Positions 38,407-43,978 of a DNA stretch of 43,978 nucleotides are shown here, in pieces. Both the position numbers and the translations under genes were made by a program. Location of the stretch: the NCBI GenBank assembly GCA_022571845.1, contig JACZXB010000002.1:1-43978 (forward strand), in the 5' to 3' direction. Within the stretch, counting starts at the first letter, position 1; the number at the start of each line of letters is the position of its first letter. The notes beneath the pieces were generated by a model. The model saw only the letters and a list, made by a program, of their open reading frames with translations, was not told the DNA's origin and did not search any database. Source of the stretch: Candidatus Zixiibacteriota bacterium (lineage in GTDB: Bacteria; Zixibacteria; MSB-5A5; GN15; FEB-12).

Positions 38407-40044
38407 CTATTCGATTTTTAGCGGTTCCAAAGACTTCAGCTCATTAGATTCCATTTCGAATACCTGCCAGGTCGAATCTTTGATGAAATAGCTAAGTTTA
38501 ATGGCCTGCCCCGCGTCATTTAATTCCAAGACAGTTAATTCGTGAGTGACATAAGAGATTTTTGTGCCGACTTTAATCACAGCTTTTTGACTTATTATAT
38601 CTTGCTGCTCAGGAAAGATGAAAAAAGAGTTGGCGCTGCTGAGTGAAAGATTGGAGGAAATACTATCGATTACGGAATTCCTGACAAAAGCAGGTTCATA
38701 TTCGCCGTGAATAGACACCTGCGTCAGAGACTTTATTTCGACAAGTTTGTTATAGTCAAATTCTGACCTCAAGCGGAAATTTACTATCGGCTCAAGGCCG
38801 TGGATTAATACGGGCGTTTCTTTATATTCTGCCGGAACGCTTAGTAGCATAAATTTGTCAATGTTTTCTTGAGCAATCTTCTCAGCAATTTGATATGATA
38901 CTTGTCTTGAAATTTGGCCAGATTTCAGCCACCTATTTTGCTCCAAGATAAGGAAGGCTGAATATGTCAGAGCTATAATTACCAGAGCAAAGTAAGCGAC
39001 CTTTTTCCAATGGCTGTTTAAGCTATGCAGTTTCCATATCAAATATGCAGCGCCCATACAAAACCCTACCGACGGCAGATACAAATACCAGCGCATTGCC
39101 AGACGCATTACCGGAAGCAGAGTGAGTAGAATAAACAATGAACAAAACATCAGCTTTCTATTTCTTGCAATTGGTTTGGCTAGTAGTAACAGAAGTGCAA
39201 GGACAAGGAAAGAAAAGACAACGAAAACTTGAGGATTTGATTTAAGGAAATTTCCGATTTCAATATGCCCTCCCGGAATCATTAAAAATCCCAGAAAGAC
39301 TGAAAAGTTTTTTAGCAAATGAGCCACCTCGAGGTTGGTATGTACTGTGCCTGTCAGGCTGCTCATTCCCGCAGTCGCAAGTCTGAACCCTACGAAAACA
39401 CCTGACGCAACCCAGAACGGCCAAGTTGCCTTTACCACGTTTCGAATTCTCTTTGCTTTGTCAGTATTCAATATCACATAGGCTGAGAGCACCAGCGGAA
39501 ATGATATAGCCATTTCTTTTGAGAGCAGAGCCAATAGATAGCAGGCTAGCGAATACAGCATTGCTCTCTTACTTTCGGAGTTTTTGTAACTTATGAAGAA
39601 AATAAGTCCGGCCAGATAAAAGCCGGTACATATCATATCTGCCCGGCCTGATATCCAGTAGATGGAACTGCTGTGAATAGGATGAAGCAGAAATAGAAGT
39701 GCCGAAACAAAGGCTATTGCACGCGCACTAAAACAATGTTTTGCCAGAACATATACAAGTAGAGTATTGGTTGTATGCAAAATTAGATTGGTAAGATGAT
39801 AGCCTGTGAAATTGTATCCCCAAAAGAATTTATCAATGACGAGTGTGAAAACTGATAATGGGCGGAAGTAGTGAAAAGATAAATCGGTTAAGCTTTGCCA
39901 GGCGAAATCTATATGATCGAGATTATCACCGACAAAAAAAATGCTAAGTGAGCGAAAAAAGACAAATGCAGAAAGTAAAATGAGAGTAACCAATTTCAAA
40001 AAATCGGAGTTAAGAATCTTTAAGCTATTTATCCGTAAAGACAC
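38407..40044 (-). CDS. GT-C type membrane glycosyltransferase (TMTC/PMT-like)
   Basis: Polytopic membrane protein of up to 545 residues with about ten helices in the first ~380 and a soluble beta-rich C-terminal domain of ~150. The early loop VGDNLDHIDFAW carries the acidic residues used by GT-C enzymes, FRPLSVFTLVIDKFFWGYNFTGYHLTNLILH and LHPIHSSSIYWISGRADMICTGFYLAGL resemble TMTC/PMT O-mannosyltransferases, and LLSKEMAISFPLVL is the conserved KE motif. Probably transfers a sugar from a lipid carrier to an envelope substrate. The frame opens with GTG at 40044, at the predicted transcription start (see the promoter entry); TTG at 39999 is the alternative. Confidence 0.75.
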   Translation of the reverse strand: MSLRINSLKILNSDFLKLVTLILLSAFVFFRSLSIFFVGDNLDHIDFAWQSLTDLSFHYFRPLSVFTLVIDKFFWGYNFTGYHLTNLILHTTNTLLVYVLAKHCFSARAIAFVSALLFLLHPIHSSSIYWISGRADMICTGFYLAGLIFFISYKNSESKRAMLYSLACYLLALLSKEMAISFPLVLSAYVILNTDKAKRIRNVVKATWPFWVASGVFVGFRLATAGMSSLTGTVHTNLEVAHLLKNFSVFLGFLMIPGGHIEIGNFLKSNPQVFVVFSFLVLALLLLLAKPIARNRKLMFCSLFILLTLLPVMRLAMRWYLYLPSVGFCMGAAYLIWKLHSLNSHWKKVAYFALVIIALTYSAFLILEQNRWLKSGQISRQVSYQIAEKIAQENIDKFMLLSVPAEYKETPVLIHGLEPIVNFRLRSEFDYNKLVEIKSLTQVSIHGEYEPAFVRNSVIDSISSNLSLSSANSFFIFPEQQDIISQKAVIKVGTKISYVTHELTVLELNDAGQAIKLSYFIKDSTWQVFEMESNELKSLEPLKIE

Positions 40045-40151: not shown

Positions 40152-42461
40152 ATGTCTCGTCTCCCTAAATTACGCTCAGATTTGATTATTTCAACAGCCG
40201 AAATCGACGGACAGACTGTATATAATATCAAAGACCCCATAACTGCCAGGTTTTTCAGACTGCGCCAGCCGGAATACTGGCTGGCTGAGCAGCTTGATGG
40301 CGCCAGTTCGCCAGAATCAATAGCCAGGAGGTTTCAAGCAAAGTTTCAGCTTAATATTCAAACGAAAGATGTGGCAGCTTTTGTAGAGCAGCTTGATAAA
40401 CTTTTCTTTTTAGAAACCAACCGTTCCGAGCAGGAGATTTCCCGCGCCAGCTACCAGACTCACCAAGAAGAATCACTCTTTTCCAGACTTCTGTTTATTA
40501 AGCTAAAAGCGTTCGACCCGACCGAGCTACTAAACGTCCTGGTAAAGCTCTACAGGCCGTTTCACTCTCTTTTTTGGTTCATACTATCCACGCTGATAAT
40601 AATTGCCGGTGTGGTTTTATTTGCCGCCAACCAGAGCCAGTTCAGTTTTAGCTTAAACGCCATTTTCAACTTTGGCTCAATTATAGCAATCGTAATATCG
40701 CTGTTTATAATTGTCATCTTGCACGAATTTTCGCACGCTATTATCTGTCGCTATTTTGGGGGAGAAGTCCGGGAAATTGGATTTCTACTAATGTACTTTC
40801 AGCCCTGCTTTTATTCTAATCTTTCCGATGCCTGGCTGTTTGAGAAAAAATCACACCGCTTAGCAGTTACAGCCGCCGGTCCATATTTTCAAATGATTCT
40901 GTTTGCTTTGGCTGTTGGTATCTGGCGGGTGACAATGATTGGAAGTTTTGTCAACGATATCGCCTACCTGATTATCCTGGTCACTTTCATAACTTTTCTG
41001 TTTAATTTTAATCCATTAATCAAGCTCGATGGCTACTATCTTTTGTCTGACTGGCTGGATATCCCTAATCTCAGGTCAAAAGCATTCGCTTATATAGGAA
41101 ATCTTTTTAAGAGAAGATTTCTGGGCTGGCCGATTGAAAAGTTAGAAATAGCAGCCAGAGAGCGCAGAATCTTCTTCTGGTATGCTTTCATGGCGCTTAT
41201 ATACTCGGGAGCCTTGATTGGGTTTATCCTCTATCTGGTCGGTTCTTTTCTGATAGCCCGATATGGCGGGGCAGGATTCCTGTTGCTGACTGCTTTGTTA
41301 TTTTTTAGCTTAAGAAAGAATATCGGCAGTCTGTTAAGCGGAACTGCTCAACACTTGATTTATATGAAAAATATTTTCAAACAACCCGTGCGGCTTCTGA
41401 AGTACGTAACAGGTCTGGCCATTTTTGTAGTAGCATTCTTCATAATAGAGTTTCCCCATAGAGTCTCAGGCGAAGTCAGCATAAAGCCGATCGTAGAGTT
41501 TAATCTTAGGCTAAATGAATTTGGGCTCTTAGAAAGCAAGCTCCAACGTGGCGGAGGCGACCCCGAAAGCAAGTCCAGTTATCTGCAAATGGCTTCAACG
41601 GATATGGCTGTACTAGAGCTGGTGCCACGAGTCAAGGACGGGCAGTTTGTCATACCGGGAGATACTTTGGCCACGTTGACCTCTAATCAGGTCACAAACG
41701 ACATATTAGGCGCAAATTCCGAGTTAGAGCGCCTGGAAGGCCTGCTGGCGCTTCTCAGAGCGCCTCCCAAGAAAGAAGAGGTTGAAGAAGCTACTACTCA
41801 GGTGGAGGCGGCCAAAACAAAAGTTGAGCAGCTTCAACGCGATTTTGATCGTATAAACGAGCTTTTATCTAGAAAACTTGAAACCACAGCGAAATTAGAA
41901 TCTACTGGTTCTTTGCTTGAAATTTCCAAATCTGAACTTTCTAATAAAAAAGCAGCGCTGGCGCTTCTCAAATCCCCTCCTAGACCTGAAGAGGAAGTAG
42001 TTATTCTGGCCGATATCAGCAAGCAGAAAGCCCGTTTGCAGTTCTTAGATGAGCAACTGGCAGCCCAGGTAATTATTGCCCCGATTGAAGGGATGGTTTC
42101 TGCTATTCCCGGAAGTTCTAATCTGATGTCGATTGTGGACAATCGCCAGGTCGAAATTCTGGTTCCTGTCTCTGATTTTGATATCCACTTAATTGAACTT
42201 GATATGCCAGTAATGCTAAAAGTTCGTTCCTGCCCAAATAAAGTCTTTACCGGGAAAGTGGTTCACATTCCAAGAGAGGCCACAGAGCTTGATAACAGGG
42301 CTTTTTTCATGGTTTCAGTTGTAGCCGAAAACGAGGACGACCTTCTCTATAACGGCATGACCGGCTATGCCAAGATAGAAATAGGCACAAGGTCATTGTA
42401 TAATCTCGCCTTGCGTAAAGTCTCATCGTTTATCAGAGTCGAGTTTTGGTCCTGGTGGTGA
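40152..42461 (+). CDS. PqqD-like / M50 site-2 protease / HlyD adaptor fusion protein
   Basis: Membrane fusion protein of 769 residues. Residues 1-90 resemble a PqqD-type peptide-binding winged helix (YNIKDPITARFFRLRQPEYWLAEQLDG...VEQLDKLFFLE). The M50 membrane protease domain spans ~135-435, with zinc motif HEFSH at 191-195 and NFNPLIKLDGYY (D293) as third ligand. Residues ~440-750 form a HlyD-like adaptor: beta-barrel start, alpha-helical coiled coil (~520-640), lipoyl-like half (IIAPIEGMVSAIPGSSNLMSIV) and VLKVRSCPNKVFTGKVVHIPREA-type barrel. It ends FWSWW. Such combinations occur in peptide maturation and export systems. The next gene is a strongly expressed 23-residue peptide, its likely substrate. 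No ABC exporter, radical SAM or other tailoring gene is visible in the window. The ATG follows a weak AGGGA. Confidence 0.85.
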   Translation: MSRLPKLRSDLIISTAEIDGQTVYNIKDPITARFFRLRQPEYWLAEQLDGASSPESIARRFQAKFQLNIQTKDVAAFVEQLDKLFFLETNRSEQEISRASYQTHQEESLFSRLLFIKLKAFDPTELLNVLVKLYRPFHSLFWFILSTLIIIAGVVLFAANQSQFSFSLNAIFNFGSIIAIVISLFIIVILHEFSHAIICRYFGGEVREIGFLLMYFQPCFYSNLSDAWLFEKKSHRLAVTAAGPYFQMILFALAVGIWRVTMIGSFVNDIAYLIILVTFITFLFNFNPLIKLDGYYLLSDWLDIPNLRSKAFAYIGNLFKRRFLGWPIEKLEIAARERRIFFWYAFMALIYSGALIGFILYLVGSFLIARYGGAGFLLLTALLFFSLRKNIGSLLSGTAQHLIYMKNIFKQPVRLLKYVTGLAIFVVAFFIIEFPHRVSGEVSIKPIVEFNLRLNEFGLLESKLQRGGGDPESKSSYLQMASTDMAVLELVPRVKDGQFVIPGDTLATLTSNQVTNDILGANSELERLEGLLALLRAPPKKEEVEEATTQVEAAKTKVEQLQRDFDRINELLSRKLETTAKLESTGSLLEISKSELSNKKAALALLKSPPRPEEEVVILADISKQKARLQFLDEQLAAQVIIAPIEGMVSAIPGSSNLMSIVDNRQVEILVPVSDFDIHLIELDMPVMLKVRSCPNKVFTGKVVHIPREATELDNRAFFMVSVVAENEDDLLYNGMTGYAKIEIGTRSLYNLALRKVSSFIRVEFWSWW

Positions 42462-42557: not shown

Positions 42558-42585
42558 TTGACAGAATTTGTATGAGAATTATATT
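42558..42585 (+). promoter_or_regulatory. Strong sigma70-type promoter of the short peptide gene
   Basis: Consensus TTGACA (42558-42563), 16-base spacer and TATATT (42580-42585, five of six). Predicted start near 42592. The hexamer pair is identical to that of the subtilase promoter. It makes the peptide gene independent of the upstream fusion gene. Confidence 0.72.
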
Positions 42586-42615
42586 TGCGGCGATTGTAAT
42601 AGGATGTTGGAAAAA

Positions 42616-42644
42616 ATTCTTCGGCTGAATGACTAGCGGAGAAT
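42616..42644 (+). promoter_or_regulatory. Leader hairpin upstream of the peptide gene SD
   Basis: ATTCTTCGGCT (42616-42626) pairs with AGCGGAGAAT (42635-42644): ten pairs, one bulged G and one G-T pair, eight-base loop. It ends eight bases before the SD, leaving that site single-stranded. It could stabilise the short mRNA or act as a regulatory element. Confidence 0.45.
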
Positions 42645-42651
42645 GAACTAA

Positions 42652-42661
42652 TAAGGAGGTG
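42652..42661 (+). promoter_or_regulatory. Full-length Shine-Dalgarno sequence
   Basis: TAAGGAGGTG is complementary to ten consecutive bases at the usual 3' end of bacterial 16S rRNA. GGAGG ends nine bases before the ATG at 42669. It is the strongest ribosome binding site in the window and decides the start of the 23-codon gene. Confidence 0.8.
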
Positions 42662-42668
42662 GTTAGCA

Positions 42669-42740
42669 ATGATTGACTACAAACTGACCGTCGAAGTTCT
42701 TGAAGCTCGTATTGCTCCATATGGCTGGAGCATTGACTGA
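42669..42740 (+). CDS. Highly expressed 23-residue peptide, unrecognised; candidate secreted or processed peptide
   Basis: Not a family I recognise. The frame runs from ATG 42669 to TGA 42738-42740. The N-terminal ten residues are mixed charged/hydrophobic (MIDYKLTVEV) and the remainder reads LEARIAPYGWSID. There is no signal peptide. Signals around it are exceptional: consensus promoter, leader hairpin, ten-base SD, a hairpin right after the stop and a strong terminator, together a transcript of about 220 bases. It follows the PqqD-M50-HlyD fusion gene by 207 bases, which suggests a short leader (with the LEARIAP part as a possible recognition element) and a very short core such as YGWSID. 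No tailoring enzyme is visible. Alternatives are a regulatory small RNA with an incidental frame, or a leader peptide. Codon use is ordinary. Confidence 0.65.
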   Translation: MIDYKLTVEVLEARIAPYGWSID

Positions 42741-42770
42741 GAACTAGTTCGGTTTTTGAACGATTAGTTC
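42741..42770 (+). other. Hairpin immediately after the peptide stop
   Basis: GAACTAGTTC (42741-42750) pairs with GAAC (42758-42761) and TAGTTC (42765-42770), ten pairs with a three-base bulge and a seven-base loop. It begins at the base after the stop codon. With the terminator it gives two adjacent 3' hairpins, a pattern of stable short mRNAs or small RNAs. Confidence 0.45.
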
Positions 42771-42779
42771 ACTTGTAAG

Positions 42780-42811
42780 GCAGGCGTGGTTCACACGCCT
42801 GCTTTCTTTTT
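42780..42811 (+). terminator. Rho-independent terminator of the peptide gene
   Basis: Perfect nine-pair stem GCAGGCGTG (42780-42788) and CACGCCTGC (42794-42802), five-base loop, followed by TTTCTTTTT. Its right half lies over the 3' codons of the convergent TPR gene, whose stop codon falls in the loop; on the minus strand no T-run follows, so it terminates mainly the plus strand. Confidence 0.9.
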
Positions 42812-43978
42812 CGTGACCATTTTTTCGCCTAAAAGTCTTATCCCATCAGTAACTCTCTTAATTTCTTTTTTATTCATAAACAGTTTTAGATCTTTTTTTC
42901 TTTGGATATTTTTTGCCATTTGTTTGCAAAGAATCAGCGCTTTTTTGTATTGCGTATAGGCCAGTTCATAGTCGCCTTGATCAAAGGCGATGCTGCCCCG
43001 TAGTGACAGTGAAATTAGTTCATCCGCTACAAGTCCGGCAGCATTGGCGAGTGTCTCAGAAGTTTTCAACATTGAGACGGCTCGATCAATTTTATTATCA
43101 CCTGAGTATACTTCGGCGGCTGCGTTCAATAACCCTGCCAGTTCTATATCTTCATGAATTTTGGGTAAATTGGGCAAATACTTCTCGACGATTTCGACGG
43201 CTGATTCGAAGTTCCTTTTTTGCAGCAAATACTGAACGTAGTTGTATTCAACCAGTATCTTTTCCCTCTCCAGCTTGAGTTCTTCAACCATTGTACGGGC
43301 GCTCTCAATGTAGCTTTCTTTGCCTGTCGCTTTAATTAGAACCAGCAGCGCAACCATTGCTTCCGGTTTGGCTTTGAGTGCCAAGGTTTCTTCATAAGCT
43401 TGTTGCGCCAGCCCTGCAGCCAGCTTATAATCTCCGATTTCGTATCTAAGCAGAGCCCTGTCGGTCAACAACCTTATCTCAAGAACTCGGTCGTCGATTC
43501 CCTCAATGATTTCTTCAGTTTCATCATAAGCATCTTCGGCTTCCGAATACCGTCCCAGCCGGTGCATTATATTACCCAGACTCTTCTTGAAGTGACCCTG
43601 AGAGGGCTTCAAATTAAGTTCTAATGACAGCTCCAGACCTTCCTGTACAAATTCGGTCGACTCTGATAACCGCCCCGTTTTTGACATAATTTCAGAAAGA
43701 TTCCAGAGGTTATGCAGCAGTTCTTTCTTGGTGCCAATGCGACGGTTGATATCTACAGCTTCCTTGATGTAACGGACCGACTCCGATACCTGCCCGCTTA
43801 GCTGGTGGGCGTAGCTGAGATTATTCAGGGTTCTGGCGATATCTCCTTGTTCTCCGAGTTCTCTTTTTATCTTAAGCGAGATATTTAGCAGCCAAACTGT
43901 CCGGCTGAGCCTTCCCATCATGCCATAAATAGAGCCGATATTGTGAAGTGTTGTGGAAGCGTCGGAAATAGCGTTCAA
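42791..43978 (-). CDS. TPR-repeat protein (5' end cut by window)
   Basis: C-terminal 395 residues of a tetratricopeptide-repeat protein; the N-terminus lies outside the window. At least eight TPR-like helical pairs are visible: DASTTLHNIGSIYGMMGRLSRTVWLLNISLKIKRELGEQG, DIARTLNNLSYAHQLSGQVSESVRYIKEAVDINRRIG, HNLWNLSEIMSKTGRLSESTEFVQEGLELS and so on, about 40 residues each, the long TPR type found in signalling proteins such as AfsR/LuxR-like ATPases or kinase-linked scaffolds. The last ~45 residues are strongly basic (KKDLKLFMNKKEIKR, TKKKAGV). The partner domain is not visible, so function is open. Its 3' end overlaps the terminator of the convergent peptide gene. Confidence 0.8.
   Translation of the reverse strand: MNAISDASTTLHNIGSIYGMMGRLSRTVWLLNISLKIKRELGEQGDIARTLNNLSYAHQLSGQVSESVRYIKEAVDINRRIGTKKELLHNLWNLSEIMSKTGRLSESTEFVQEGLELSLELNLKPSQGHFKKSLGNIMHRLGRYSEAEDAYDETEEIIEGIDDRVLEIRLLTDRALLRYEIGDYKLAAGLAQQAYEETLALKAKPEAMVALLVLIKATGKESYIESARTMVEELKLEREKILVEYNYVQYLLQKRNFESAVEIVEKYLPNLPKIHEDIELAGLLNAAAEVYSGDNKIDRAVSMLKTSETLANAAGLVADELISLSLRGSIAFDQGDYELAYTQYKKALILCKQMAKNIQRKKDLKLFMNKKEIKRVTDGIRLLGEKMVTKKKAGV

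Follow-up and report, generated by a model that had tools for sequence, protein, structure and literature searches.

A frame of only 23 codons lies in this Zixibacteria genome between the gene of a large membrane protease and the 3' end of a kinase gene, and the locus raises the question of whether such a short frame really encodes a peptide and, if so, with which neighbors the peptide acts. The window (the whole stretch of 43,978 nucleotides that was analysed) contains the following features:

40152 to 42461, + strand: gene of a 769-aa protein, proposed to process and export the peptide (Pfam, NCBIfam, fold match and motifs)
42558 to 42585, + strand: sigma-70-like promoter TTGACA-16-TATATT, with 11 of 12 matches (TTGACG/TATATT in close relatives)
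42616 to 42644, + strand: weak leader hairpin, conserved solely inside the genus
42652 to 42661, + strand: Shine-Dalgarno (SD) sequence TAAGGAGGTG
42669 to 42740, + strand: putative precursor peptide gene, 23 codons, MIDYKLTVEVLEARIAPYGWSID (homologue alignments, profile searches and codon selection)
42669 to 42719, + strand: proposed leader, residues 1-17, with the candidate RRE recognition motif L11-E12-x-R14-x-A16-P17 (alignment with the daptide leader and LEPR-XLL N-termini)
42720 to 42737, + strand: proposed mature core YGWSID, supposing a cut after Pro17
42741 to 42770, + strand: hairpin directly 3' of the stop codon, nearly identical in close relatives
42777 to 42811, + strand: intrinsic terminator, with the stem at 42777-42805
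42791 to 43978, - strand: 3' part of a Ser/Thr kinase + TPR gene, the proposed sensor or partner (985 aa, continuing beyond the window to G000:C14:45748)

Most of the signals that the preliminary description had attributed to the frame were recovered. TTGACA, the consensus -35, starts at 42558 and TATATT, the near-consensus -10, ends at 42585 after a spacer of 16 bases; the ten-base SD is found a single time in the window; the 23 codons translate as had been claimed; and a 12-pair stem followed by a T-run forms the terminator. A promoter match this good is found in about 0.3% of random sequences resembling the 207-base intergenic stretch, but five sites with 11 of 12 matches occur in the 44-kb window, the one of the peptide gene included, so the promoter by itself is not unique. 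The claimed hairpins held in part. Those on the 3' side, terminator included, are strong, while the leader hairpin is weak and not strong in other genera: the 224-base transcript folds with z = -3.9 against shuffles, and nearly all of this comes from the 75 bases past the stop (z = -5.9), with the leader hairpin region on its own being unremarkable (z = -1.4). The 3' arm of the terminator overlaps the final codons of the convergent kinase gene, and its T-run corresponds to Lys codons of the kinase on the opposite strand. Close relatives retain the promoter and the SD as well as the frame and its terminator, and a terminator is found in most genera examined, with a sequence that differs among them. 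No Rfam match was found anywhere in the window.

To find the peptide family, relatives were searched with the upstream protein and the DNA after each homologue was read. The same short frame follows the protease homologue at nearly every locus. With a profile built from an alignment of 27, and then 42, peptides, homologues were found in 104 of 132 genomes of the Zixibacteria phylum, and in 51 of the 60 genomes among the closest relatives. The consensus in these alignments is MxxYxLxVEVLEARIAP-xGxSxGGQ, in which L, L, E and P are invariant. Among 69 distinct stretches of 14 codons, pN/pS is 0.30, as under purifying selection, the third codon positions are the most variable, and an SD-like sequence precedes the frame in 68. 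Homologous loci retain the frame and LEARIAP while the flanking DNA diverges, which supports the earlier interpretation of the locus as a peptide gene. The strong 3' hairpins could also suggest that the frame arose by chance within a small RNA or a terminator region, but this is refuted by the codon pattern, the SD sequences and the maintenance of the frame across the phylum, and we leave it practically no probability; a product acting only as RNA is ruled out by the codon selection and the weak fold of the leader. The 23-residue frame is, with near certainty, a real coding gene. It had been described as fitting no family, and indeed the peptide matches no NCBIfam family; among the peptides, neither the NCBIfam nor the LEPR-XLL models gave anything significant. 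Across most of the phylum the gene is single-copy with a conserved core. In family f7 (L106 3649-4183; L107 3768-4286), two tandem peptide genes with Gly-rich tails (GGGGSGGL, GLGSGGLQ) adjoin the kinase gene. Taken as a family, these precursor peptides are real and conserved, and apparently uncatalogued.

The peptide gene forms a three-gene unit with the gene of the 769-aa protein, which closely precedes it, and the kinase-TPR gene, which closely follows. The 769-aa protein is composed of a PqqD-like RRE (approximately residues 3-89), an M50 intramembrane protease and a HlyD-type periplasmic adaptor (433-754), and the protease motifs are intact (HEFSH at 191, NPLIKLDG at 287-294). Three strands and three helices, arranged as in an RRE, open its predicted structure, and residues 3-89 match a leader-bound lasso-peptide RRE (6jx3_B; Z 11.4, rmsd 2.4 A over 83 of 85 residues) and the TbiB1-leader structure (5v1v; Z 10.9). 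The Pfam PqqD model matches weakly in 4 of 11 members of the protease family and is above its cut-off in some alphaproteobacterial homologues and in one from Armatimonadetes. The RRE-M50 half resembles the NCBIfam model daptide_HExxH (5e-62), with 210 bits against a curated cut-off of 300. On the other side of the protease gene there is a 545-aa protein (38407-40044 of the window, - strand), with no Pfam match. Homologues of the 769-aa protein occur in 101 of the 132 genomes of the phylum, and their distribution follows that of the peptide: 97 genomes contain both, 24 neither, 7 only the peptide and 4 only the protease (Fisher p = 3e-16, a statistic that ignores kinship), most of the 11 discordant genomes being incomplete.

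This architecture leads to the daptides, for which the RRE-site-2-protease fusion that removes the leader served as a search handle (PMC10036551). Precursors co-occurring with the daptide RRE-S2P carry ELExMEAP, with its Pro numbered -1, and L(-7) and M(-4) of the leader are essential for the RRE-dependent processing by MpaB/MpaC, although the RRE in question belongs to MpaB, another protein (PMC10036551). The LExRxAP of the Zixibacteria peptides aligns in register with this motif, VLEARIAP and ELExMEAP sharing LE-x-x-x-AP and the final Pro; the invariant L11 and the R/K14 stand opposite L(-7) and M(-4), with R/K replacing M(-4) and I/V replacing E(-3). After AP, most relatives have a tail of 7-8 residues, typically xGxSxGGQ. 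From this register we infer that the peptide is a RiPP-type precursor, in which a cut after Pro17 would leave YGWSID, and its processing by the neighboring protease is likely. No known modifying enzyme was found among the genes adjacent to the peptide gene, so the status of a RiPP in the strict (modified) sense is only putative.

As in the daptide clusters (MpaA with the RRE-site-2-protease MpaP; PMC10036551), short precursors, multi-copy in some genomes, are encoded near an intramembrane site-2 protease that carries the RRE at its N-terminus. The differences are considerable. In daptides, MpaB/C/D/M turn the invariant C-terminal Thr into a dimethylated amine (PMC10036551), whereas the peptides described here end in D, Q, G and other residues, not in Thr, and none of the Mpa enzymes (oxidative decarboxylase, aminotransferase or methyltransferase) is encoded by the adjacent genes; membership among the daptides was rejected for this reason. 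Furthermore, our protease has an additional HlyD adaptor, a kinase-TPR partner is present, the core has 6-8 residues rather than being longer and rich in branched-chain residues, and the Zixibacteria are absent from the list of phyla in PMC10036551. The M50 proteases of epipeptides (EpeP, thought to both cleave and export) and pearlins (TglG, TmoG) are similarly intramembrane enzymes dedicated to a small ribosomal peptide (PMC10885120), but no known modifying enzyme adjoins our peptide, and RRE and HlyD are fused to the protease. The maturation module thus resembles the daptide or epipeptide type, yet the peptide is not a daptide.

The pearlins suggest a further role, that of a scaffold to which an amino acid would be added before release by an M50 protease, as TglG and TmoG release pearlins (PMC10885120), or a PQQ-like cofactor precursor. 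The gene being single-copy and conserved would agree with this, and one member of the alignment weakly matches the ammosamide leader model (E = 0.15). Against it, no modifying enzyme is adjacent. In 20 relatives there is no match to Lant_dehydr_N (PEARL ligase), a search in which the control genomes gave none either. We consider such a precursor highly improbable.

The LExR motif is found in a second context. Plasmid homologues of the 769-aa protein adjoin giant proteins, some annotated as LEPR-XLL and some not, and at six of the loci inspected the N-termini of these proteins are of the LEPRxLLSAD type, with LEPRFLLSADP, MEPRVLLSADP, LEPRVLLNADV, IEPRILLSADP, LEPRVVYDASV and LEPRMLFDGAI; at the other five loci the fetched stretch showed no LEPR-type N-terminus, but some of them have no annotation or no DNA upstream of the cluster, so that not all five count as negatives. 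On the alphaproteobacterial plasmids L092, L093, L095 and L137, the giant LEPR-XLL-like proteins share a cluster with RRE-M50-HlyD and a second HlyD, frequently joined by DUF3467 and TolC. Such plasmid clusters are candidates for a dedicated export and processing system of giant surface proteins. Proteins with the proteobacterial LEPR-XLL signal (NF012209) thus share with our peptides the LE-x-R signal and a neighboring RRE-M50-HlyD of the same architecture, but in the giant proteins it is followed by thousands of residues, and here by a core of 6-8. At a threshold of E <= 10, the curated 24-position model NF012209 recognises none of the 42 peptides. One Zixibacteria genome that encodes the mini-peptide contains, in addition, a frame of more than 4400 aa with a LEPR-XLL match above the cut-off (L100, G035:C150).

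Since LExR is common to the mini-peptides and to giant surface proteins beside homologous exporters, the peptide might work uncut, as a stand-alone targeting signal: a small regulator, a docking partner or a mimic of LEPR-XLL-type substrates for the exporter. That NF012209 finds no LEPR-XLL substrate in the genome of the window (no match at E <= 1) would be in line with it. On the other hand, the residues that follow AP are conserved in their own right, as xGxSxGGQ, through many different codons, which indicates that it was selected beyond the targeting signal, and the homologues of the kinase-less genus g30 retain the signal but exchange the tail. For us this possibility is quite improbable, and the cut precursor continues to be the preferred reading.

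The neighbor on the other side brings the question of what the released core would do. The catalytic motifs of the kinase-TPR protein are intact and its TPR array is long; the kinase domain is PknB-like (Z 31), and the fold matches listed are to this domain. RNPP_C gives a weak match, below the cut-off (E = 0.0029). The kinase gene is convergent with the peptide gene and mostly 25-130 bp from it in nearly all genomes. It remains adjacent also in families where the protease lies elsewhere, such as f4, in which the peptide gene is on the protease contig but approximately 22-25 kb away from the protease, still adjoining the kinase. Within the four nearest families (80 genomes), kinase and peptide are both present in 61 and both absent in 10, with 4 having the peptide only and 5 the kinase only, counts that ignore kinship. 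The four peptide-only genomes constitute one genus (g30) without the kinase, and three of them have 4-7 copies of the peptide. The genes are usually multiplied in this genus, reaching up to seven (L058 8429-10168; L122 4609-6348; L123 4542-5656; L084 47-682), with tails of the S[RK][YWF]G type, e.g. SRYGAE. Beside the kinase, 58 of the 67 distinct stretches carry the S.GG tail, vs 4 of 20 elsewhere, but those 20 are dominated by the kinase-less genus, which makes this contrast close to a single evolutionary event. The kinase occurs without the peptide in a few genomes. In one of them (G013), protease and peptide are both absent and a chloride-channel gene abuts the kinase (L124 1-836, G013:C559), which shows that the kinase can persist alone.

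The closest known pairs are those of the RRNPP type (Rap-Phr, PlcR-PapR and others), where a propeptide of 10-100 aa is directly adjacent to a TPR protein of 250-500 aa that acts as receptor (PMC10075063). Our peptide gene directly adjoins a TPR protein too, its predicted mature peptide has few residues and no DNA-binding domain was seen in the partner, as in Rap. Unlike those pairs, the receptor candidate is a 985-aa kinase-TPR protein, no Sec signal is apparent, maturation would be carried out by RRE-M50-HlyD and the host is not a member of Firmicutes. OppA-type importers (SBP_bac_5) were absent from the genome of the window and present in only 5 of 20 relatives, while the control matched in 11 of 14. 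An export-and-reimport loop would therefore be without its usual importer, and if the kinase senses the peptide, it may read it inside the producing cell or by means of another importer. The conservation of the core within the phylum is also unusual for species-specific pheromones. The adjacency of kinase and peptide could be inherited gene order. Going by gene order and co-loss only, we propose tentatively, as something plausible but still doubtful, that the kinase may be a sensor of the peptide.

If the kinase is a neighbor by inheritance only, the product of RRE-M50-HlyD could be an exported processed peptide, bacteriocin-like or another natural product. Proteases of the RRE-M50 and M50 types are known for RiPPs, namely daptides, and epipeptides and pearlins (PMC10885120). 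Multi-copy arrays with variable tails exist in genus g30, and also in an Armatimonadetes genome that encodes one RRE-M50-HlyD only, where at least 7 short frames have EVEEMEERIAP-like leaders and variable tails (L145, G132:C331:1-12000). These tails all end in WR (FWR, YWR, LWR), and the frames are spread over one contig, interspersed with ORFs of 660-740 aa. Similar leaders with differing tails are what would be expected if one leader served many cores, and we suggest that these frames are likely an undescribed RiPP-type precursor array. The kinase is moreover dispensable where arrays occur. However, over most of the phylum the peptide is single-copy with a conserved core, the kinase remains a neighbor where the protease has been relocated, and modifying enzymes are missing from the adjacent genes. 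An exported product of this kind therefore seems unlikely, although less so than a targeting signal.

We thus favor, with some reservation, a precursor processed by RRE-M50-HlyD with the TPR-kinase as partner; as a whole, this explanation appears reasonably probable. The cytosolic RRE of the 769-aa protein would bind LExRxAP in the 17-residue leader, the fused intramembrane M50 protease would cut after Ala-Pro, freeing a core of 6-8 residues (YGWSID here, xGxSxGGQ in most relatives), and the fused HlyD adaptor would hand it toward the periplasm. This half, with the RRE binding, the cut after Pro17 and the outward passage, is quite probable because homology, fold, motif register and co-occurrence all point to it. 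The variable cores ending in WR that leaders of this type carry in the Armatimonadetes genome also agree with the explanation. The TPR superhelix of the convergent kinase may then bind the core, or else the precursor before it is cut, and set the kinase activity, resulting in a peptide-to-phosphorylation signalling unit. The gene with its coding selection, the RRE fold, the intact motifs of the protease, the co-occurrence and the synteny are demonstrated; the cleavage site, the export and, above all, the sensing by the kinase are what we infer from the sequences. Still more speculative, and somewhat doubtful, is the broadest version: a phylum-wide signalling unit of Gram-negative-type bacteria, in which a daptide-like leader would be cut by an RRE-protease-HlyD exporter and a 6-8 residue peptide sensed by a TPR-Ser/Thr kinase, the LExR code being common to mini-peptides, daptides and giant LEPR-XLL proteins.

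Among the papers searched on the LEARIAP/LEPR motif, PqqD-M50-HlyD proteins and RiPPs in Zixibacteria, we found nothing on this system and no description of the combination of peptide, RRE-M50-HlyD and kinase-TPR. The peptide connects the leader code of the daptide RRE-proteases, the unexplained LEPR-XLL signal and the TPR kinases, subjects that are unlinked in those papers, and the function of LEPR-XLL becomes testable as RRE binding and M50 cleavage past the signal. Too short to be called by gene finders, the peptide gene is nonetheless a conserved marker of a phylum for which metagenomes are the main source. It also offers a concrete candidate for peptide signalling via a Hanks-type kinase outside Firmicutes and, if this is true, RiPP-type maturation and kinase signalling would be coupled in one unit.
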